In this document: one piece after another, positions 1,587-47,158 of the stretch | Layout of the letters: the number at the start of each line of letters is the position of its first letter | How positions within the stretch are numbered: the stretch's first letter is position 1 | DNA from: Natranaerobius thermophilus JW/NM-WN-LF | GTDB lineage: Bacteria; Bacillota; Natranaerobiia; Natranaerobiales; Natranaerobiaceae | Direction of reading: 5' to 3' | Assembly: GCF_000020005.1 (NCBI RefSeq) | Contig: NC_010718.1 | Location: 1,183,001-1,247,000 of the forward strand | DNA: 64,000 bases | Notes under the pieces: model-generated | The model's database searches: none | Told to the model about the DNA's origin: nothing | The model's input: only the letters and a program-made list of their open reading frames with translations | Translations under genes and position numbers: made by a program

Positions 1587-2756
1587 TCAATTTTCAAAAT
1601 CGGCTTTAATCCGGTCAATTAGCTCCGGTTGAACTAACAAATCGGCACCAGTCATTGCTAGAGCTTTGGCTCCCAATAACATGCCTTGTTTACCTTCCTT
1701 AGAGCCAGCTGCTTCTTTAAAGGCATCTGTATGTGCTGCAATATCTCGAGAACTTATTGAAATGAAAGGGTGGATTGAGGGTGTGACGTGGCTGACATTA
1801 CCCATATCTGTTGATCCAAAATTACCCCCTGGGGCGTGGATTACTGCACCCAGTTCTTTTAAATTTTGTTGAAATGAATCTGCCAGGGTTTTGTTAGTTA
1901 TCATGTTATCGAAGGATAATTCAAAATAATCATATTCATATTGACAGCCTGTAGCTTGGGCAGCACCACTGGCACAATTAATCACCTTTGAAACCACTTG
2001 ATTTAAGTAATCTCTTTCAGATGCTCTAACATAGAATCGGGCTACTCCTTTTTCAGGAATGATATTAGGGGCAGATCCCCCTTCTGTGATGATTCCGTGA
2101 ATACGTACATCTGTTGTTAATTGTTGGCGTAAGGAGTTAATATTATTAAAGAGTGAAATTACCGCATCTAGTGCATTGATTCCTTCATGAGGAGCCGCAG
2201 CTGCATGAGCTGCTTTTCCATAAAATTTAAATTCTATAGCGTCCATAGCTAATGAACTATCTAGGACCATATTTTTGCTACCAGGATGACAGATTAAGGC
2301 GGCATCTAAATGGTTAAAAATTCCTTGTTCCACCATAGTGACCTTGGCACCATCAGTTTCCTCGGCAGGTGTACCGTATATCTCAATGGTTCCACCTTGA
2401 AATTTATCTAGCAATCGTTTTAGAGCTACACCAGCCCCGTAACTCATGGCAGCAATTAAATTATGCCCACATGAATGTCCTTCAGGTAAAGCATCGTACT
2501 CCGCTAAAAATCCGATCTTAGGATACGGGGAGTGTTGTGATTGATAGGAGGCCTTAAAAGCAGTTTCAAGTCCGGCGATTGGTTGTTGTACTTCAAAACC
2601 TTCCTGGGATAATTTATTAGTTAAGAGTTTCACTGCCTGAAATTCTTCAAGTCCAGGTTCGGGATTTTGATGGATAAAATCGGCAATTGAGCCAAGTTCT
2701 TTTTCTAAGTTCTTTATTTCTTTAATAACCTCAGTTTTTATTTCTGAACTCAACAA
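1587..2756 (-). CDS. M20 family metal-dependent amidohydrolase
   Basis: Predicted zinc-dependent amidohydrolase/peptidase that cleaves an amide bond of a small N-acyl or dipeptide-like substrate. The 389-aa protein has the M20 metal-site motif EYDALPEGHSCGHN (about residues 86-99), AEETDGAKV and a dimerisation-domain stretch HAAAAPHEGINALDA. The combination with GHSCGHNLIAAM resembles the AbgB / ACY1L2-like subgroup rather than classic aminoacylase. No signal peptide. It is a single-gene unit with a good site (aggagag) before ATG at 2756, and about 160 bases separate it from gdpD. True substrate unknown. Confidence 0.88.
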   Translation of the reverse strand: MLSSEIKTEVIKEIKNLEKELGSIADFIHQNPEPGLEEFQAVKLLTNKLSQEGFEVQQPIAGLETAFKASYQSQHSPYPKIGFLAEYDALPEGHSCGHNLIAAMSYGAGVALKRLLDKFQGGTIEIYGTPAEETDGAKVTMVEQGIFNHLDAALICHPGSKNMVLDSSLAMDAIEFKFYGKAAHAAAAPHEGINALDAVISLFNNINSLRQQLTTDVRIHGIITEGGSAPNIIPEKGVARFYVRASERDYLNQVVSKVINCASGAAQATGCQYEYDYFELSFDNMITNKTLADSFQQNLKELGAVIHAPGGNFGSTDMGNVSHVTPSIHPFISISSRDIAAHTDAFKEAAGSKEGKQGMLLGAKALAMTGADLLVQPELIDRIKADFEN

Positions 2757-9195: not shown

Positions 9196-10746
9196 GTGTC
9201 AGGGAGAGTATATTTAATAGGTGCGGGCCCAGGAGATGAAGGCCTAATTACTGTCAAAGGCCTAAACTGTGTCAAAGAAGCTAATGTAATTGTTTATGAC
9301 CGGCTTATTCCCCAAGCTTTATTGCGATATGCACCTTCTACTGCCGAGTTTATATTTGTGGGCAAAAGCCCTGAAAAACATACTTTAACACAAGAAGAAA
9401 TAAATGATTTATTAATTGAACAAGCTGAGCAAGGTAAAATTATTGCAAGATTAAAGGGCGGTGATCCCTTTGTATTTGGCAGGGGAGGTGAGGAGGTCAT
9501 AGCTTTAAAAGAACATAATATACCTTTTGAAGTGGTACCTGGTATAACTTCAGCAGTAGCAGCTCCTATGTATGCAGGAATACCAGTTACTCACCGAGGA
9601 CTAAGTTCAAGTTTTGCGGTCATAACCGGTCATGAGGATCCGGACAAAGCTGAAAGTTCTATCTCATGGCAAGACTTAGCCTTAGAAAGTGGAACTTTGT
9701 GTTTCTTGATGGGAGTGGGTAACCTCTCCAGAATAGTTGATAACTTGCTGGCCCATGGAAAAGATTCTGAAACCCCTATAGCTTTAGTTAGATGGGGGAC
9801 TCGCCCCTATCAGAAAACCCTGACCGGTACCCTATCGAATATAGTAGAAAAAGCAAAGAGCGAAAACTTTAAATCACCGGCGGTAATCATAATTGGTGAA
9901 GTGGTAAATTTACGAGAACAACTGGCTTGGTTTGAAAAGAAGCCCTTTTTTAATAAAAATATTCTAGTTACTAGGGCGAGAAGTCAGGCTAGTGAACTTT
10001 CATATAAAATTTCCCAACTGGGTGGTCAACCTGTGGAGTTCCCCACAATTAAAATAGAAAAACCTGATACATACCAACCCCTGGATGAAGCTATTAAAAA
10101 ATTGGCTGAATATAACTGGCTGGTTTTTACTAGTGTTAACGGGGTGAAACACTTTTTTAATAGATTAGAAAATTTAGATTATGATTGTAGACAACTCGCC
10201 GGCTTAAAAACTTGTGCTATTGGTTCTAAAACTAAAGAATCTTTAGAAGAGAAGGGTATAAAGGCTGATGTAGTGCCCCAAGAATATAGAGCTGAAGCAT
10301 TGATCGACTTAATGAAAGAGCAAGTTAAATCAGGTGATCGTGTCCTAATTCCCCGTGCAAAAGAAGCTAGAGAAGTACTGCCGGAAGCTTTAAGGGAGCA
10401 GGGCTTAAAAGTGGATGTAATTACTGCTTATGAAACAGTAAAAGACACTAAAGACACAGAAAAAGTCCGGAAAATGTTAAAACAAAATGAGTTAGACGCC
10501 ATCACATTCACTAGTTCTTCTACGGTAAAAAATTTTGTGGAAGTGTTAGAATTAAATGTAGGGTTAAATGAACCAGGCGCCGTACTAGCTAACACTCATA
10601 TTGCATGTATCGGCCCTATCACTGCTAGTACTTGCCAACAGTATGGTATAGAAGTTAATTCAATTGCCAATGAATATACAATTCCAGGTCTGGTAGAATC
10701 CTTGATAGATAATCTGGATGAGAACGTGGAGGAGGAGTTTAAATGA
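9196..10746 (+). CDS. cobA-hemD: Uroporphyrinogen-III methyltransferase / uroporphyrinogen-III synthase fusion
   Basis: Bifunctional protein. Residues 1-245 are the SAM-dependent methyltransferase that makes precorrin-2 (motifs VYLIGAGPGDEGLITVKG, VVYDRL-like IVYDRLI, GGDPFVFGRGGEE, VVPGITSAVAAP, PVTHRG). Residues about 255-516 are HemD, which cyclises hydroxymethylbilane (starting NILVTRARSQASELS; TFTSSSTVKNF near residue 435). GTG 9196 lies just after hemC's aaggagggg. The fusion couples ring closure to methylation and so channels material toward siroheme, as expected for the siroheme-dependent haem route encoded around it. The stop overlaps ahbC by 4 nt (ATGA). Confidence 0.96.
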   Translation: MSGRVYLIGAGPGDEGLITVKGLNCVKEANVIVYDRLIPQALLRYAPSTAEFIFVGKSPEKHTLTQEEINDLLIEQAEQGKIIARLKGGDPFVFGRGGEEVIALKEHNIPFEVVPGITSAVAAPMYAGIPVTHRGLSSSFAVITGHEDPDKAESSISWQDLALESGTLCFLMGVGNLSRIVDNLLAHGKDSETPIALVRWGTRPYQKTLTGTLSNIVEKAKSENFKSPAVIIIGEVVNLREQLAWFEKKPFFNKNILVTRARSQASELSYKISQLGGQPVEFPTIKIEKPDTYQPLDEAIKKLAEYNWLVFTSVNGVKHFFNRLENLDYDCRQLAGLKTCAIGSKTKESLEEKGIKADVVPQEYRAEALIDLMKEQVKSGDRVLIPRAKEAREVLPEALREQGLKVDVITAYETVKDTKDTEKVRKMLKQNELDAITFTSSSTVKNFVEVLELNVGLNEPGAVLANTHIACIGPITASTCQQYGIEVNSIANEYTIPGLVESLIDNLDENVEEEFK

Positions 10747-22243: not shown

Positions 22244-23041
22244 TTAATAATCACCAGTGTCGTTTATTAATTGATTTTTTTCGTTGAAAAAGGTTTTGTA
22301 ACCCAGTTGGACAAAGGTAATTACTGTTAGAGAAACTCCTCCTAGTATACCTAACATAATTGCAATTTGATATGAAATTGCTGTCAAAGGTGAAATTCCG
22401 GATAAAATTTGACCGGTCATCATACCTGGTAAAAAGATAATTCCCATACCCATCATATTATTAATAGTCGGTATAATTGCAGATTCAAAAGAATTATTAA
22501 TGATTCTTTTTGCTGCAACATTTGGTCTTGCACCTAGCATTAGATACCCTTCGACAGTTTCTTTTTCTGTTTCCATTCCGTCAGACATACGTTCTACGCC
22601 AAGGGTAATACCAGTCATAGAATTACCAATTAACATGCCAGCAATAGTAACAAAGTATCTTGGATCATACCAAGGGGTGACATTGATAACTATAAAGATA
22701 AAATAGAATAAGGTGATTAAAGTGCCAAAAACCATTGAAAAAGCTATAATTTTCTTAAAGTATAAGCTCAATTTTTTCTTAGCTCTGCTAAAGATGTTTA
22801 TAACAGCAAAGGTTTCCATAACTAAAATCACAAATAGTGTCAGTAACGGATGTTGATTATCAAAAATAAAAATTAATACATAGCCCATAAGCATTAATTG
22901 GATTGTCATTCTGATAGTAGATAAGATGATTTCTTTTTCTCTAGGGATTTGCTTGACTTTGACAATTAATAACAGAATTATTACAAAAATATAAGCTGAT
23001 AACATCTGATAAAAACCTAATTCAACTACTCCAGCCTCCAT
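22244..23041 (-). CDS. FetB-type ABC permease (UPF0014)
   Basis: Membrane subunit, 265 aa and about seven helices, of the FetAB/YbbLM iron-export family. Family-typical stretches are MTGITLGVERMSDGMETEKE, EGYLMLGARPNVAAKRII and FLPGMMTGQILSGISPLTAI. The gene starts within the end of the ATPase gene (16-nt overlap), so the two are translationally coupled. In Escherichia coli the pair lowers iron load and oxidative stress; transport of iron here is inference from family and from the nearby Fur gene. Confidence 0.88.
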   Translation of the reverse strand: MEAGVVELGFYQMLSAYIFVIILLLIVKVKQIPREKEIILSTIRMTIQLMLMGYVLIFIFDNQHPLLTLFVILVMETFAVINIFSRAKKKLSLYFKKIIAFSMVFGTLITLFYFIFIVINVTPWYDPRYFVTIAGMLIGNSMTGITLGVERMSDGMETEKETVEGYLMLGARPNVAAKRIINNSFESAIIPTINNMMGMGIIFLPGMMTGQILSGISPLTAISYQIAIMLGILGGVSLTVITFVQLGYKTFFNEKNQLINDTGDY

Positions 23042-37498: not shown

Positions 37499-39051
37499 AT
37501 GAACAATAATAAAATTGTCTTTAAAGATTATAACATGAATCAACTACAACTGCCAATGGATTTAAGTGAAGAATACCAGATAATCATGTTGTGAGGGTAG
37601 TAAATGACTCAATTGATGAACTAGATGATAATTTATTCTTAAAATATTATCCAGGTGGAGGGAGAAGCAGTTATCATCCAAAAATGATGACTAAAATTTT
37701 AGTATATGCTTATACACAAAAGATATATACTTCACGTCAAATAGCCAAAGCAGTTAGAGAGCAACTGCCTTTCATGTGGATAGCAGCACGACAAAAACCT
37801 GATTTTAGAACAATTAATAGGTTTAGATCAGAGCGGATGAAATACGTAATAGACGAAGTGTTTGCATCAGTGCTTGAACTTTTGATAAAAGAAGGTTACG
37901 TAAAATTTGAAAATTACTTTTTAGATGGCACTAAAGTAGAAGCTAATGCAAACCGTTACAGTTTTGTATGGAAGAAGTCCACAGACCGCTATGAAGCTAA
38001 TCTTCAAGCTAAAATAAAAGAATTATTACAAGAGATAGAAGAGGAAAATGAGCGAGAAAATGAAATATATGGTGATAAAGATTTAGATGAATTGGGAGAA
38101 GACAGTCAAATAACAAGTGAAGATCTGGAGAAAACCGTAGAAAAACTAGAATCACGTTTAAAAGAAGAACCAAAAAACAAAAAAGTGAAGAAAGCAGTAA
38201 AAACAATAAAAAAAGACTACTTACCCCGGACACGAAAGTATGAAAAATATCAGTCAACTTTTAATGGCCGAAACAGTTTTTCAAAAACAGATAAAGATGC
38301 TACTTTTATGCGCATGAAAGAAGATCACATGAAAAATGGTCAGTTAAAACCAGGATACAACATTCAGCTGGGAACAGAAAACCAATTCATTTTAGGATAT
38401 AGTATTCACCAGAAACCAACTGACACAACTTGTTTAATTCCGCATTTAGAAAAACTTGAAGAACAGCTTGGTAATGTTCCTCAAAACATAATTGCTGATG
38501 CTGGTTACGGAAGTGAAGAAAACTATAGATATTTAGAAGAAAAAGATAGGAATGCTTACGTTAAGTATAATACATATTTCCAGGAACAAAAACGTAGTTG
38601 GAGAAAGAAAATATTCCGAAGAGAAAATATGCATTATGATGCTAAAAATGATAAATTCATCTGTCCAAATGGGAAAGAGTTACACTTTCAATATGAAAAA
38701 AGTTACAAAACTGAAGCTGGTTATATTACAAAACGGCGACTGTATAGATGTTTTGATTGCCAAGAATGTGAGTTAAAAGAAAAGTGTACTAAGTCTAAAA
38801 AAGGTAGGACTGTTTGGGTCAATTGGGAATTAGAAAGTTACAAACAAAAAGCTAGAGAAAACCTTGGAACTGATCATGGAAGAGAGCTCTCTTCTCAAAG
38901 GAAAATTGATGTGGAGAGTGTAAATGGTCATTTCAAGGCTAATCGTATGTTTAGGCGATTTATGCTCCGTGGGCTAGATAAAGTTAATATCGAACTTGGA
39001 TTAATCAGTTTAGCACATAATATGATTAAGAAGGCAGCCATAGGATTCTAG
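37499..39051 (+). pseudogene. IS1182-type transposase, frameshifted near codon 25
   Basis: DDE transposase of the IS1182 type. From ATG 37499 the frame reads MNNNKIVFKDYNMNQLQLPM DLSEE and is then shifted by a missing base near 37573; it stops at 37594. The main frame resumes at about 37575 (first start-like codon GTG 37591) and runs 486 codons to 39051, with LKYYPGGGRSSYHPKMM, NYFLDGTKVEANANRYSFVW, NIIADAGYGSEENYRYL and the late DVESVNGHFKANRMFRRFM (catalytic Glu region). Without frameshifting or internal initiation the first 30 residues are lost, so I call it a pseudogene; function of the 486-aa product cannot be ruled out. Confidence 0.8.
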
Positions 39052-42914: not shown

Positions 42915-43988
42915 TTAATAAGCGAGTTCCGCTTCTTGGACTAAACTTGTCATTAGATCTTTTACGCTCGTCAATTTATTAGTTCTGTAAGCATTTGTCC
43001 CTGAAAAAATTAGACCATCTGTTGTATTTCCTTGACAGGACTTGATTAAGGCCTCGGAAATACAATAAATATTAGTACTGGGATCACAGGGTTTTAGACA
43101 ATTATTGCACTTTGAAACGGGGATTCGTTTTGTTTCAATTTGTTTTGTGAAATTATTTGAAATGGCTCTTCCGGGCATCCCCACAGGGCTATCAACTAGC
43201 TGAATATCTTGTTCCCGTGAATTTATATAAGCTTTTTTGAAGTTTTCATGTACATCGCATTCTTCAGTGGTAACAAAGCGTGTTCCCATCTGTACCCCTT
43301 GAGCACCCATCTTTAGAAACTTTGCAATATCTTGTCCGTTGAATATTCCTCCGGCTGCTACTACTGGAATAGTACGTTCATATTTTTTTGCAAAAGGATG
43401 TAAGGCCTCTTGGGTCTCAGGGATGAGCTTTTCTAAAGTTGAGCAATCGGGACTGTTCAACTGTTGTTTTTTAAAACCTAAATGCCCACCGGCCAAGGGA
43501 CCTTCTACAATTACTATATCAGGTACCCGGTTATAACGTTTATCCCATAATTTACAAATCAAAGAAGCTGCCTTCCCTGAAGATACAATGGGTGCTAATT
43601 TAGTTTTAGCATCTTCTACTAGACCTGGTAAATTCTTAGGTAGCCCAGCCCCTGTTACAATCACATCTATGTTTTCTTTGACAGCTGTTTTAACCATATC
43701 TTCATAATTATTAATAGCTGCTAGTAGATTGACCCCAATGATACCTGAAGGACTTAAATCTTTGGCCTTTCTGATTTGTTTTGTCAAAGCCCTTAGATTT
43801 GCTTGATCGGGATTTGTAGAGAAATCCGGTTCAGAATAACCGATTTGGACTCCGGAAATTACTCCGATTCCCCCGTGATTAGCTACAGCTGAAGCTAATC
43901 TAGATAGGGAAACACCAACTCCCATTCCTCCTTGAATAATAGGTACTTTGGCAATTAGTTCTCCAATTTTTAAAGATGGTAAAGACAA
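42915..43988 (-). CDS. Nitronate monooxygenase / FabK-like flavin oxidoreductase
   Basis: FMN-dependent TIM-barrel enzyme, 357 aa. N terminus KIGELIAKVPIIQGGMGVGV is the family start; FMN phosphate site VAAGGIFNGQDIAKFLKMGA and QMGTRFVTTEECDVHENFK follow. A Cys-rich insertion (CNNCLKPCDPSTNIYCISEA near residues 300-320) is usual in clostridial members annotated as nitronate monooxygenase or enoyl-ACP reductase II. Actual substrate is uncertain: there are no fab genes nearby, so nitronate or another 2-enoyl-type substrate is possible. Single gene on the minus strand. Confidence 0.87.
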   Translation of the reverse strand: MSLPSLKIGELIAKVPIIQGGMGVGVSLSRLASAVANHGGIGVISGVQIGYSEPDFSTNPDQANLRALTKQIRKAKDLSPSGIIGVNLLAAINNYEDMVKTAVKENIDVIVTGAGLPKNLPGLVEDAKTKLAPIVSSGKAASLICKLWDKRYNRVPDIVIVEGPLAGGHLGFKKQQLNSPDCSTLEKLIPETQEALHPFAKKYERTIPVVAAGGIFNGQDIAKFLKMGAQGVQMGTRFVTTEECDVHENFKKAYINSREQDIQLVDSPVGMPGRAISNNFTKQIETKRIPVSKCNNCLKPCDPSTNIYCISEALIKSCQGNTTDGLIFSGTNAYRTNKLTSVKDLMTSLVQEAELAY

Positions 43989-44185
43989 TTTATAACACCT
44001 AACTTTCTAAAAATTTAACTATTAGTTAAATACGTGTTGATTATATCCATAGTGTTACAGCTTGTCAATGATTCTATACTATCTTAAAAAAATTTTTCAA
44101 AAAAACTGTTGTCTCAGCACAATAGATTATCTTTTGTGGCACAGTTGTTACATTACCTGACAGTGACGTATTATAGAATGAAGTA

Positions 44186-44410
44186 GCTTATAAATCAAAA
44201 AATGATGGTGTTATGCATGCATGTGCCCATGATGGCCATATGGCCATGTTATTGGTAGCAGCCAAAATTTTAAGTCAACAAAAAGAGAAACTTAAAGGAA
44301 ATATAAAATTTGTATTTCAGCCCAATGAAGAAAACGCTGGTGCAAGGTTAATGGTTGAAGAAGGTGTATTGGAAAATCCCAAAGTGGATGCTTGTGTTAA
44401 CTGGAACAGA
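44186..44410 (+). pseudogene. Fragment of an M20 amidohydrolase
   Basis: From about 44186 the frame reads YKSKNDGVMHACAHDGHMAM and VFQPNEENAGARLMVEEGV, the central metal-site part of an M20 (IAA-amido-hydrolase type) enzyme. N- and C-terminal thirds are absent. After VDACV at about 44400 the reading frame continues without a stop into unrelated M24 peptidase sequence. Unlike the M20 gene at 1.6 kb it is not intact. It looks like a deletion relic. Confidence 0.8.
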
Positions 44411-44971
44411 AGAGCATGGAGGGGATTATCTGCTATAGTTCCTCTTATGCCTTCAGGAGAAAATACTGGCGCATGTCACTTGACCTGGACAGATAGGAAA
44501 TATCAAGAAAACGATGCAATTATTTTGGAACTATCTGGTTGCTATCGCAGGTATCATTCACCTATGGCTAGAACTATATTCTTGGGAGATAATCCACCTC
44601 AAGAGCTTCAAAGAATGGCTGATATTGTAGCAGAAGGGGTTAACACAACTTTAGAATTTATCAAACCAGGTGTAACTTGTGAGGAAATTGAAGCAACTTG
44701 GGCTGGTGTGCTAAAAAATACGGCTTGAACAAAGAATCCCGTATTGGTTACTCTGTTGGTCTTAATTATCCACCAGATTGGGAGAGCATACAATCAGCTT
44801 GCGACCAGGAGATAAAACTGTACTTCAAGAAAATATGACTTTCCACTTAATGCCCCTGGTATGTGGTCTGATGATTTTGGCTTTGAATTGACAGAAACAG
44901 TAAGAGTTACCAAAGATGGTTGTGAAGCTTTGGCAGACTTCCCAAGGAAGCTGGCAAGTAAATCAGCCTAA
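44400..44971 (+). pseudogene. Decayed M24 peptidase, ectoine hydrolase (DoeA)-like
   Basis: From RRAWRGLSAIVPLMPSGENT the sequence follows the C-terminal half of DoeA-type M24 peptidases: ACHLTWTDRKYQENDA, ELSGCYRRYHSPMARTIFLG and EFIKPGVTCEEIEATW. A frame change near 44717 (AAAAAATACGG) gives an early stop; in other frames GLNKESRIGYSVGLNYPPDW, EHTISL, RPGDKTVLQENMTFHLMP, SDDFGFELTETVRVTKDGC and a stop at 44971 remain recognisable. At least three indels are needed (near 44717, 44780, 44855). DoeA opens ectoine in halophiles; the inactive state and substrate are inference. Confidence 0.8.
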
Positions 44972-45003
44972 ATATAAATTAAAATTAAGACGGAGGGATA
45001 TTT

Positions 45004-46203
45004 ATGGAAAAACGTAGGTTATCATTTAATGCTAAGGCTATTCATGCAGGTAGTGAACCCTGCCCTACTACAGGAGCTCATGTAGCGCCAGTTTACCGGA
45101 CTTCAACCTTTGTTATTGATAATGTCGAGAGAGCTATCAGAATAGGCTATGGAGAAGAGGAAGGATATTCTTATGGTAGATTTGGAAACCCCACGGTAGA
45201 CGCTTTACAAGAAAAAATTGCTTCTCTTGAAAATGCTGAAGCAGCTTTGGCTACGGCTTCAGGCATGGCAGCAATTTCTACTGCATTAATGGCAGAACTA
45301 CAAGCTGGTGACCATATTGTGACAGGTGATATCATCTATGGTTGTACCTATGGTTTTGTCCGCGATCTTTTACCTCAATACGGAATTGAAGTGACTATGG
45401 TTGATACAACAGATCCTAAAAACATTGAAGAAGCAATCAAACCAAATACTAAAATAGTATATATTGAAACTCCTTCAAATCCTGTATTGGGGATCACTGA
45501 TATTGAAAAATCAGCTGAACTTGCACATGCTAATGGTGCTAAACTGTTTGTTGACAATACTTGGGCAACTCCTTATCTACAAAATCCACTAAATATAGGA
45601 GCAGATGTTGTACTTCATAGTGCAACAAAATACTTGAATGGTCATGGAGACATTGTTGGTGGAGCTATAGTAGGTTCAAAAGAGTTAATGGATAAAATCA
45701 AAGCACCATATCTTGAATTCTTCGGTGGAATTATGTCTCCAATGGATGCAGCAGAAGTATCTAAAGGAATTAAAACACTAGGAGTGCGAATGGAAAAACA
45801 CTGCCAAAACGCTAAAAAGATAGCTGAATTCCTAGAAGGCCATCATATGGTAGAAAGAGTTCTATACCCTGGTGTTGAAACTCATCCGCAACACGAGCTA
45901 GCCAAAAAGCAGATGAAAGATTTTGGTGGCATGATGAGTTTTGATGTCAAAGGTGGTGCAAAGGCAGGAAAAGCCCTTATGAACAGTGTTGAACTAGTTA
46001 GTCTTGCTACTAGTCTTGGCTGTGTAGATTCTCTGATTCAGCATTCACCTTCTATGAGTCATGCCACAATGAGTAAAGAAGAACGAGAGCGTGTAGGTAT
46101 TACTGAAGGACAAGTGCGATTATCTGTAGGAATTGAAGAGCCTGAAAATGTCATTGCTGATCTAAAACAAGCCCTAGAGCAAGTTGAAAAAGTTATAGAT
46201 TAA
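45004..46203 (+). CDS. megL: Methionine gamma-lyase
   Basis: PLP enzyme of the Cys/Met metabolism family, most like methionine gamma-lyase, which splits methionine into methanethiol, ammonia and 2-oxobutyrate. Evidence: STFVIDNVERA start region, YSYGRFGNPTVDAL, Cys114 in IIYGCTYGF (the MGL-specific active-site Cys), PLP Lys209 in VLHSATKYLNGHGD, and NSVELVSLATSLGCVDSLIQ. 399 aa; ATG follows gacggaggg. Cystathionine gamma-lyase/synthase are alternatives, but the Cys and gap-free match to MGL favour the call. The IclR gene downstream may regulate amino-acid breakdown. Confidence 0.87.
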   Translation: MEKRRLSFNAKAIHAGSEPCPTTGAHVAPVYRTSTFVIDNVERAIRIGYGEEEGYSYGRFGNPTVDALQEKIASLENAEAALATASGMAAISTALMAELQAGDHIVTGDIIYGCTYGFVRDLLPQYGIEVTMVDTTDPKNIEEAIKPNTKIVYIETPSNPVLGITDIEKSAELAHANGAKLFVDNTWATPYLQNPLNIGADVVLHSATKYLNGHGDIVGGAIVGSKELMDKIKAPYLEFFGGIMSPMDAAEVSKGIKTLGVRMEKHCQNAKKIAEFLEGHHMVERVLYPGVETHPQHELAKKQMKDFGGMMSFDVKGGAKAGKALMNSVELVSLATSLGCVDSLIQHSPSMSHATMSKEERERVGITEGQVRLSVGIEEPENVIADLKQALEQVEKVID

Positions 46204-46276: not shown

Positions 46277-46354
46277 ACATAAAAAAAACTGATAAACTGT
46301 TATTAGATCTTATTATACTTACGTCCATGTAAGTAGAACTGTGAGGTGACTAAA

Positions 46355-47158
46355 TTGAATCAATTAATTACACCTATGTATAAACCTAAATATCCTGTTC
46401 AAACGCTAGAAAAAGCTTTTGAAATTGTAGAAATATTATCATTACAAGAATCCGATGATGGTCTAGGAGTCAGCGAATTGAGTAGTAGATTAAACATTGG
46501 TAAGAGCACTATTCATAGATTGTTAGATACTCTAGTTGCCTATCAGTACGTTGAAAAACTACCTGACAACAAATATAGACTGAGCTGGAAAATTTTTCAG
46601 TTAGGAAGTGCCGTACCCAGGCAGAGATCTGTAGGTAATCTAGATCCTAAATACCTAAAAGAACTATGTGAAAAGTTTCAAGAAACTGTCAACTTAGGGG
46701 TTAAAGAAGGAAGAGACGTAGTAGTTGTTTCTAAGGTGGAGCCAGAAACCAGCTATAGATTAAAGGCTAATTTCCATGTAGGTGAAAAAGAACCCTTTTA
46801 TGCAACTGCTATGGGAAAAGTGCTGTTTTCTGAATTGAGAGAAGAAAATCTCAGACAACTACTAGAAGACTTTCAGTTAGAAAAATTGACAGAAAAAACC
46901 ATTACATCAGTGGACGAGCTTTTGAATGAGTTAAGAAATGTAAAGAAACAAGGTTATGCTATTGACGATGAAGAGTATTGTAAAGGACTATGTTGTATAG
47001 CCATGCCTGTTAAGGATTTTTCCGGAAAGACAGTTGCGGCCATTAGTGTGAGTGGTCCTTCTTTTAGATTAGATTTTAAGAAAATGATGACAATTAAAGA
47101 AGAACTAGAGAGAGTTACTACAGAGGTCAGTCGCCATTTCGGTTATGGTGTTAAATAA
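46355..47158 (+). CDS. IclR-family transcriptional regulator
   Basis: 267-aa regulator. N-terminal winged helix-turn-helix: TLEKAFEIVEILSLQ, GLGVSELSSRLNIGKSTIHR and LLDTLVAYQYVEKLPDNKYR. The C-terminal effector domain includes ETSYRLKANFHVGEKEPFYA, TAMGKVLFSEL and YCKGLCCIAMPVKDFSGK. I choose TTG 46355, five bases after gaggtga, rather than GTG 46346 that overlaps the site. It has its own promoter region after the megL terminator, so co-regulation is not certain. Effector unknown. Confidence 0.92.
   Translation: MNQLITPMYKPKYPVQTLEKAFEIVEILSLQESDDGLGVSELSSRLNIGKSTIHRLLDTLVAYQYVEKLPDNKYRLSWKIFQLGSAVPRQRSVGNLDPKYLKELCEKFQETVNLGVKEGRDVVVVSKVEPETSYRLKANFHVGEKEPFYATAMGKVLFSELREENLRQLLEDFQLEKLTEKTITSVDELLNELRNVKKQGYAIDDEEYCKGLCCIAMPVKDFSGKTVAAISVSGPSFRLDFKKMMTIKEELERVTTEVSRHFGYGVK

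Follow-up and report, generated by a model that had tools for sequence, protein, structure and literature searches.

The stretch of DNA analysed here, a window of 64,000 nucleotides from the genome of Natranaerobius thermophilus (3,191,453 bases, three contigs), very probably contains the scar left by a catabolic cluster, of the DoeA (ectoine hydrolase) type, that has been lost. N. thermophilus is a haloalkaliphilic anaerobe, and the relic would record how such an organism lost a nutrient pathway. This reading draws on the homology found for each of the pieces, on the breaks in frame, on how the genes are arranged in intact relatives and on the stretch that is missing by comparison with them. 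The presence of an M20 amidohydrolase and DoeA relic is confirmed, far beyond chance; a PLP enzyme gene beside it is intact. All coordinates are positions in the window.

The first remnant is an M20 amidohydrolase fragment at 44177..44398 on the plus strand, which corresponds to approximately residues 89-162 of a protein of about 395 residues; the preceding part and the following half are missing. In tblastn searches of the whole window, residues 89-162 of the protein M20a from an intact cluster of Clostridium bovifaecis (CP046522, L004) matched 44177-44398 with 81% identity over 74 aa (E 9.9e-35), and the M20 protein of a second intact cluster (L051, genome G233) matched the fragment with 76% identity over 72 aa (E 8.4e-32). 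In the family search the joined frame that includes this fragment matched Pfam Peptidase_M20 (6e-20), TIGR01891 (85 bits) and the DoeB2 model NF038260 (78 bits). An interpretation of the alanine in the HACAHDGH motif of the fragment as decay was dropped, as the M20 protein of L051 has the identical alanine. Elsewhere in the window an M20-family match (1794-2726, minus strand) shares 27-28% identity with the cluster M20 proteins.

A single open frame of 183 codons (44177-44725), terminated by TGA at 44726-44728, passes from M20 into DoeA sequence with the joint at approximately 44395-44400, in agreement with the sequence-only reading, which had placed the transition near 44400. The DoeA-like remains (44397-44968) comprise the last ~188 residues of the protein and reach the expected C-terminal end at 44968, followed by a stop. 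They lie on the plus strand in five pieces. The first, residues 202-212 (LTGTEEHGGDY, 44397..44429), stands in a frame unlike that of the M20 fragment and unlike that of the next piece; it agrees with L051 DoeA in ten and with L004 DoeA in nine of its 11 residues. Despite the non-significant value obtained for it alone (tblastn E 0.16 in the whole window, 0.001 in a 1.1 kb stretch), this piece was accepted as DoeA because it is collinear with the others and because of the 10/11 agreement. The second piece, residues 213 to ~308 (44429..44725, 78/96 residues as in L051 DoeA), continues the M20 frame and has the TGA at its end. After changes of frame follow residues 309-329 (44719..44784, 18/21 residues as in L051), residues 330-354 (44778..44855, 21/25) and the C-terminal residues 355-389 with the stop (44858..44971, 26/35). 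In whole-window tblastn searches, residues 213-389 of L004 DoeA matched 44429-44962 with E 7.5e-49 and L051 DoeA matched the relic with E 4.3e-62.

After the joint the open frame runs for about 10 codons outside the DoeA frame and is back in it at 44429; three later frame changes lie near 44719-44725, 44778-44784 and 44855-44858. Where at least three frame changes before the expected DoeA end had been claimed, four were found. The fusion had been called in frame, which is correct for the net frame but not for the first 11 DoeA residues, which stand in another frame. The segment had been delimited as 44186-44971; its end is retained, whereas the matched start is at 44177.

The DoeA part is clearly distinct from ordinary M24 peptidases. 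TIGR02993 (ectoine hydrolase DoeA) was the top NCBIfam model for all five DoeA-containing queries, namely the joined frame, the DoeA part of the joined frame and three C-terminal pieces. The E-values were 7.6e-25 for 44402-44725 (best non-DoeA model 7e-9), 2.7e-6 for 44713-44835, 5.2e-8 for 44772-44858 and 3.3e-8 for 44837-44968; at a limit of E 1, every match of the three C-terminal pieces was to a DoeA model. A piece of 108 residues scored 87.8 bits with TIGR02993 and 35.1 bits with the best Xaa-Pro model. The score of the relic, 118 bits, is below the curated TIGR02993 cut-off of 613. Among solved structures, intact L004 DoeA matched DoeA (6twk) first with 391 bits, with prolidase after it at 117. 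In a tree of 33 rows, in which the relic fills 48% of the columns, the relic is sister to L051 DoeA (100/98), with L004 next (100/100), apart from four ordinary M24 rows; relic and L051 DoeA share 82% identity over 187 sites. The M24 protein L002 of the host shows the motifs MDF..CSDMTRT, GHGVG and VEPGVY, at positions which we take to be those of the M24 metal ligands; at the aligned positions the relic, largely like L004 and L051, reads LEL..YHSPMART, GYSVGLN and MPGMW and is M24 sequence devoid of the usual peptidase ligands, presuming these positions. Family scores and the residues at the presumed ligand positions led us to reject the idea that the C-terminal part derives from an Xaa-Pro peptidase or a prolidase, and the assignment to DoeA made from the sequence alone is upheld.

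The intact relatives account for the joint. In L051, which belongs to a family other than that of the host, genes for IclR, M20, DctQ, DctM, DctP, DoeA, the PLP enzyme and an aminotransferase lie on one strand, and the six from M20 to the PLP gene are contiguous. L004 has the order PLP, PucR (opposite strand), M20, DctQ, DctM, DctP, DoeA and a second M20, the PLP gene being upstream of the cluster, unlike in L051. The order in the window (M20 fragment, DoeA relic, PLP, IclR) is that of L051 with approximately 4.3 kb taken out, a stretch that begins in the middle of M20, covers the TRAP transporter genes and ends in the middle of DoeA. By the distance that separates the matched M20 residues from the matched DoeA residues, the missing stretch measures 4316 bp in L051 and 4367 bp in L004. 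The transporter proteins of L051 gave no convincing remnant in a tblastn search of the 64-kb window. A candidate DctQ remnant at 22607-22969 (tblastn 8e-5) was dropped; by eye its ORF looks like a permease gene that neighbours one for an ABC ATPase.

Because the intact L051 and L004 clusters carry M20 upstream of DctQMP-DoeA, a deletion scar is the best interpretation of the M20/DoeA chimera; M20 would be the upstream gene of the same cluster and not a foreign fusion partner. The sequence-only reading was correct in finding M20 and DoeA side by side, but its view of M20 as a fusion partner is not maintained. The host ancestor would have had the L051 gene order of M20 deacylase, TRAP DctQMP, DoeA-like M24 hydrolase and methionine gamma-lyase-like PLP enzyme. 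One deletion of about 4.3 kb, the simplest account of the joint, would have fused mid-M20 to mid-DoeA and removed the transporter genes; the first part of M20 would also have been lost, and small indels would have broken the remaining DoeA. In the trees both the DoeA relic and the PLP gene are sister to L051, with L004 in the next or the same clade. The ancestral order is drawn from distant genomes, since the one same-family genome (G001) and the one same-order genome (G002) had no DoeA at E 1e-90 and the former no PLP match at E 1e-60; the latter had two PLP matches of 42-44% identity. A search for more clusters near G233 yielded G233 itself only, one of five genomes in its order and one of 13 in its class. 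That the 183-codon frame encodes a working fusion protein is hardly credible, for although it is open over 44177-44725 it has no M20 N-terminus or second half and no DoeA N-terminal half, includes ~10 out-of-frame codons at the joint, ends in TGA ~80 residues before the DoeA end and is followed by three further frame changes.

Downstream of the PLP gene lies an IclR-family regulator gene (46346..47158, plus strand) with 58% identity over 258 aa to the IclR adjoining M20 in L051. It is possibly the former regulator of the cluster; IclR genes occur also in the DoeA loci L050, L060 and L067, and the gene is on the M20 side of the cluster in L051 and on the opposite side, after PLP, in the window. 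Upstream of the relic, a sigma-70-like promoter match (12/12, TTGACA-17-TATAAT) at 44068-44040 on the minus strand precedes a nitronate monooxygenase-like gene (42915-43988) and sits in the gap left by the absent first part of M20; the region has 13 promoter matches, compared with 8.8 in shuffles (sd 3.3). About 5 kb ahead of the relic, an ORF of 486 aa (37591-39051, plus strand) appears transposase-like by eye.

Erosion of the relic at the residue level is mild. Of 68 sites at which eight relatives do not vary, the relic keeps 64; with seven of the eight as reference, 71 sites are invariant, of which the relic keeps 66 and L051 68. Relative-rate counts gave 21 relic-specific changes versus 7 in L051 with L004 as outgroup (p 0.013), 17 versus 5 with L050 (p 0.017) and 11 versus 7 with Priestia L069 (p 0.48), while the same count for the PLP gene with four outgroups was balanced (23 v 27, 21 v 17, 24 v 26, 27 v 23). 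These values fit a PLP gene still under selection beside an unselected relic, the relic side being moderately supported. Mild erosion might also suggest that the gene is in truth intact and that sequencing errors have produced the frame changes. We regard this as very improbable, as four frame changes occur in 575 bp beside long intact frames, and errors of base calling cannot explain why the transporter genes, the greater part of M20 and the N-terminal half of DoeA are absent.

The statement that the locus is now lost agrees with the rest of the host genome, which gave no second DoeA-grade match (best other M24 47.8 bits versus 118 for the relic). For ectoine synthesis, a first search for EctC gave no match in the host, nor in the controls; repeated at E 1e-10 it matched four of 149 genomes of the phylum, the host not being among them. 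One DctM-family match (27.1 bits, Pfam cut-off 23.8) was found in the host, where some TRAP-like permease may remain elsewhere. From the window locus the host can perform none of import, ring opening and deacetylation. The locus had been said to fit a saline habitat, which is a weak argument in view of one intact cluster in Clostridium bovifaecis, a species whose name points to cattle faeces.

In Proteobacteria, EutD/DoeA converts ectoine to acetyl-diaminobutyrate, a deacetylase yields diaminobutyrate, and the ssd and atf products lead on to aspartate, as outlined in PMC13188858. The same source (2026) describes putative ectoine clusters of Bacilli and Clostridia with a EutD homologue, an amidohydrolase, a transporter (TRAP in some) and an atf-labelled gene, assigns them tentatively to ectoine, and gives EutE as absent from the Bacillaceae examined there. 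By homology, TRAP in the intact cluster would import ectoine, DoeA would open the ring, the M20 protein, which in L051 and L004 would replace EutE, would deacetylate the product, and 2,4-diaminobutyrate would be passed on.

A lost ectoine-type degradation locus, as proposed in the sequence-only reading, is the best reading and is supported by the DoeA family match, with ectoine as the inferred substrate, since the scored Bacillota relatives miss the ectoine hydrolase cut-off: TIGR02993 is the best family for the DoeA proteins of L004 (500 bits), L051 (503) and Priestia (531), and a DoeA-like gene is present at E <=1e-90 in 17 of 398 genomes of the phylum, with scores above 613 bits in none of the 398. 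The M20 proteins behave likewise, L004 and L051 reaching 265 and 269 bits with DoeB2 NF038260, far under its cut-off of 550. These observations favor a cluster of the same build in which the M24 and M20 pair breaks down some other amino-acid derivative, N-acylated or cyclic, as do the higher scores of the intact M20 relatives on the CpsA carboxypeptidase model (390-398 bits, cut-off 500; only the broad amidohydrolase cut-off is passed) and the existence of other M24 proteins, 36-45% identical to L004 DoeA and near M20 genes, that are annotated as peptidases. We nevertheless judge such a substrate improbable. TIGR02993 is by far the best family, a EutB homologue occurs in six of 19 Bacillota DoeA stretches (though in neither L051 nor L004), a DoeA-like gene on a Priestia plasmid lies two genes from an annotated eutB, and such Bacillota clusters have been tentatively assigned to ectoine in print (PMC13188858).

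The 19 stretches cover 21 listed DoeA places, some being cut by contig ends; M20 was found in 15 and DctM in 14. When L004 is added, the PLP clade described below is represented in four of the 20 loci (L004, L051, L062, L063), a Glu/Leu-type dehydrogenase gene (>400 bits) in nine and an aldehyde ferredoxin oxidoreductase gene (>1000 bits) in four, the Pfam names of the last two kinds being taken from one example each. The three kinds do not overlap, in small numbers, and L057, L059 and L064 have none of them at those levels. Mutual exclusion of the PLP clade and the glutamate-dehydrogenase-type gene is a hint only: four PLP loci without the dehydrogenase stand against nine loci with the reverse (Fisher p 0.029 over 17 loci, three of them from genome G044), and p is ~0.07 with all 20, when the omitted L057, L059 and L064 are included. 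The loci L049, L052, L053 and L061 combine the aldehyde ferredoxin oxidoreductase with a serine hydroxymethyltransferase-like gene (named by eye), and could represent a different means by which anaerobes complete ectoine degradation. In L067 (genome G115) the DoeA-like gene at 9671-10471 on the minus strand is cut to ~266 residues with a stop, with M20, DctM and other cluster genes present, and is possibly another broken copy.

In a parallel case, plasmid pBMV_1 of Priestia megaterium (L069, 4750-16225) carries, in this order, genes for PucR, eutB, pdxS, the DoeA-like protein (59.6% identity to L004 DoeA), a cyclodeaminase, a member of the cystathionine gamma-synthase family, M20, homoserine dehydrogenase and aldehyde dehydrogenase. 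Its PLP gene matches NF006097 with 764 bits (cut-off 600) and belongs to another subfamily, on a long branch far from the clade of the window gene. With two dehydrogenase genes beside the PLP gene, this plasmid could encode a route from diaminobutyrate via homoserine and aspartate semialdehyde to aspartate. By position this gene may be the atf of PMC13188858.

The surviving PLP gene (45004..46203, plus strand) encodes an intact methionine gamma-lyase-like enzyme of 399 aa and corresponds to the gene that follows DoeA in L051. A Shine-Dalgarno-like GGAGGG (44992..44997, plus strand) was read six bases before its ATG. The protein matches Cys_Met_Meta_PP (Pfam, 9.2e-147) and is 77% identical to that of the DoeA-adjacent gene of L051. 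Its best NCBIfam models are methionine gamma-lyases, with 504 and 500 bits under cut-offs of 666 and 549.7; the value for TIGR01328 is 500.3 bits, under the 549.7 cut-off. The nearest solved structures in the PDB search are likewise methionine gamma-lyases.

In the PLP tree (45 rows, 41 different; L088, L089, L090 and L091 are identical to L079, L080, L082 and L081 and do not touch the clade in question), the window gene forms a clade of five rows with the genes of four intact DoeA clusters (100/99), L051 being its sister (100/100). The three other methionine gamma-lyase-like genes of the host (L086, L092, L093) are placed outside this clade. The YGCT motif is present in 32 rows; the remaining 13 are from other subfamilies, with no YGCT and different residues there. 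The lysine of the KD motif, whose residues in methionine gamma-lyase presumably have a role in methionine specificity, is replaced by Glu or Gln in all five clade rows (Glu in the window) and is Lys in all 27 other YGCT rows; SPSMSH in the five corresponds to PASMTH in the 27. The window protein keeps the YGCT cysteine (IIYGCTYG) and the PLP lysine (HSATKY).

A search with the L051 PLP protein gave 32 places in 30 of 398 genomes at E 1e-135, and 28 of the 32 are in the tree. L116, L119 and L126, which were left out, have the KD motif and PASMTH; L124, also left out, gave no match to the motif pattern. L124 aside, the clade members in the sample are the host and G233, G226 and G367, each of these three with DoeA in the same cluster. 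For L127-L136, the 10 places with the highest scores among those not in the clade, no DoeA, M20 or TRAP match was found nearby; the L129 stretch, just 7.9 kb long, contains a cyclodeaminase-like match (150 bits).

The gene could be an ordinary methionine gamma-lyase for sulfur metabolism, unrelated to the lost pathway, and we give this a substantial chance, somewhat short of even. The top models, the nearest structures and the conserved YGCT motif and PLP lysine agree with it, and the class I/II aminotransferase gene that adjoins the PLP gene in L051 could take diaminobutyrate along the usual route, which counts against a lyase step. The scores below the model cut-offs, the position in the tree among genes from four intact DoeA clusters, away from the three other methionine gamma-lyase-like genes of the host, and the replacement of the KD lysine throughout the clade argue against it.

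As the alternative we propose, tentatively and at rather less than even confidence, that the gene represents a new enzyme clade nested among the methionine gamma-lyases, which would act on L-2,4-diaminobutyrate and eliminate its gamma-amino group to give 2-oxobutyrate and ammonia. Anaerobes could then ferment ectoine by a route other than the proteobacterial transaminase and semialdehyde dehydrogenase, and in the host the lyase would have outlasted the upstream steps, perhaps to act on diaminobutyrate from elsewhere. A literature search found no paper on ectoine with cystathionine gamma, ectoine in Clostridia, methionine gamma-lyase residue numbering or methionine gamma-lyase with diaminobutyrate, and the main text of PMC13188858 makes no mention of cystathionine, M20 or anaerob. 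From the compact M20-TRAP-DoeA-PLP cluster in Bacillota, with this PLP clade, one would expect ectoine degradation to finish in a simple fermentative way. It is the clade that merits work at the bench, for which a single purified enzyme and a single substrate would suffice.

The relic is ordinary in itself, and its cluster type is already in print (PMC13188858); the PLP clade is the new element. Compared with the DoeA/EutD ectoine hydrolase (TIGR02993; 6twk), the relic is alike in best family, C-terminal end and presumed metal-ligand changes, and differs in comprising residues 202-389 only, in five pieces, and in having Bacillota relatives under the curated cut-off. Compared with the DoeB2/M20 amidohydrolases (NF038260, TIGR01891), the fragment matches the M20 family and its intact relatives pass the broad amidohydrolase cut-off. 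The window PLP protein resembles methionine gamma-lyase (TIGR01328; 3jw9) in family, PLP lysine and YGCT motif and differs from it in the Glu/Gln for the KD lysine, in SPSMSH for PASMTH and in its score below the cut-off. The L051 and L004 clusters resemble the Bacillota ectoine clusters outlined in PMC13188858 in their DoeA homologue, transporter and amidohydrolase and differ in having no EutB or EutC homologue, while of this set the window retains only remains, with no transporter, next to a gamma-lyase-like PLP gene in a clade of its own.
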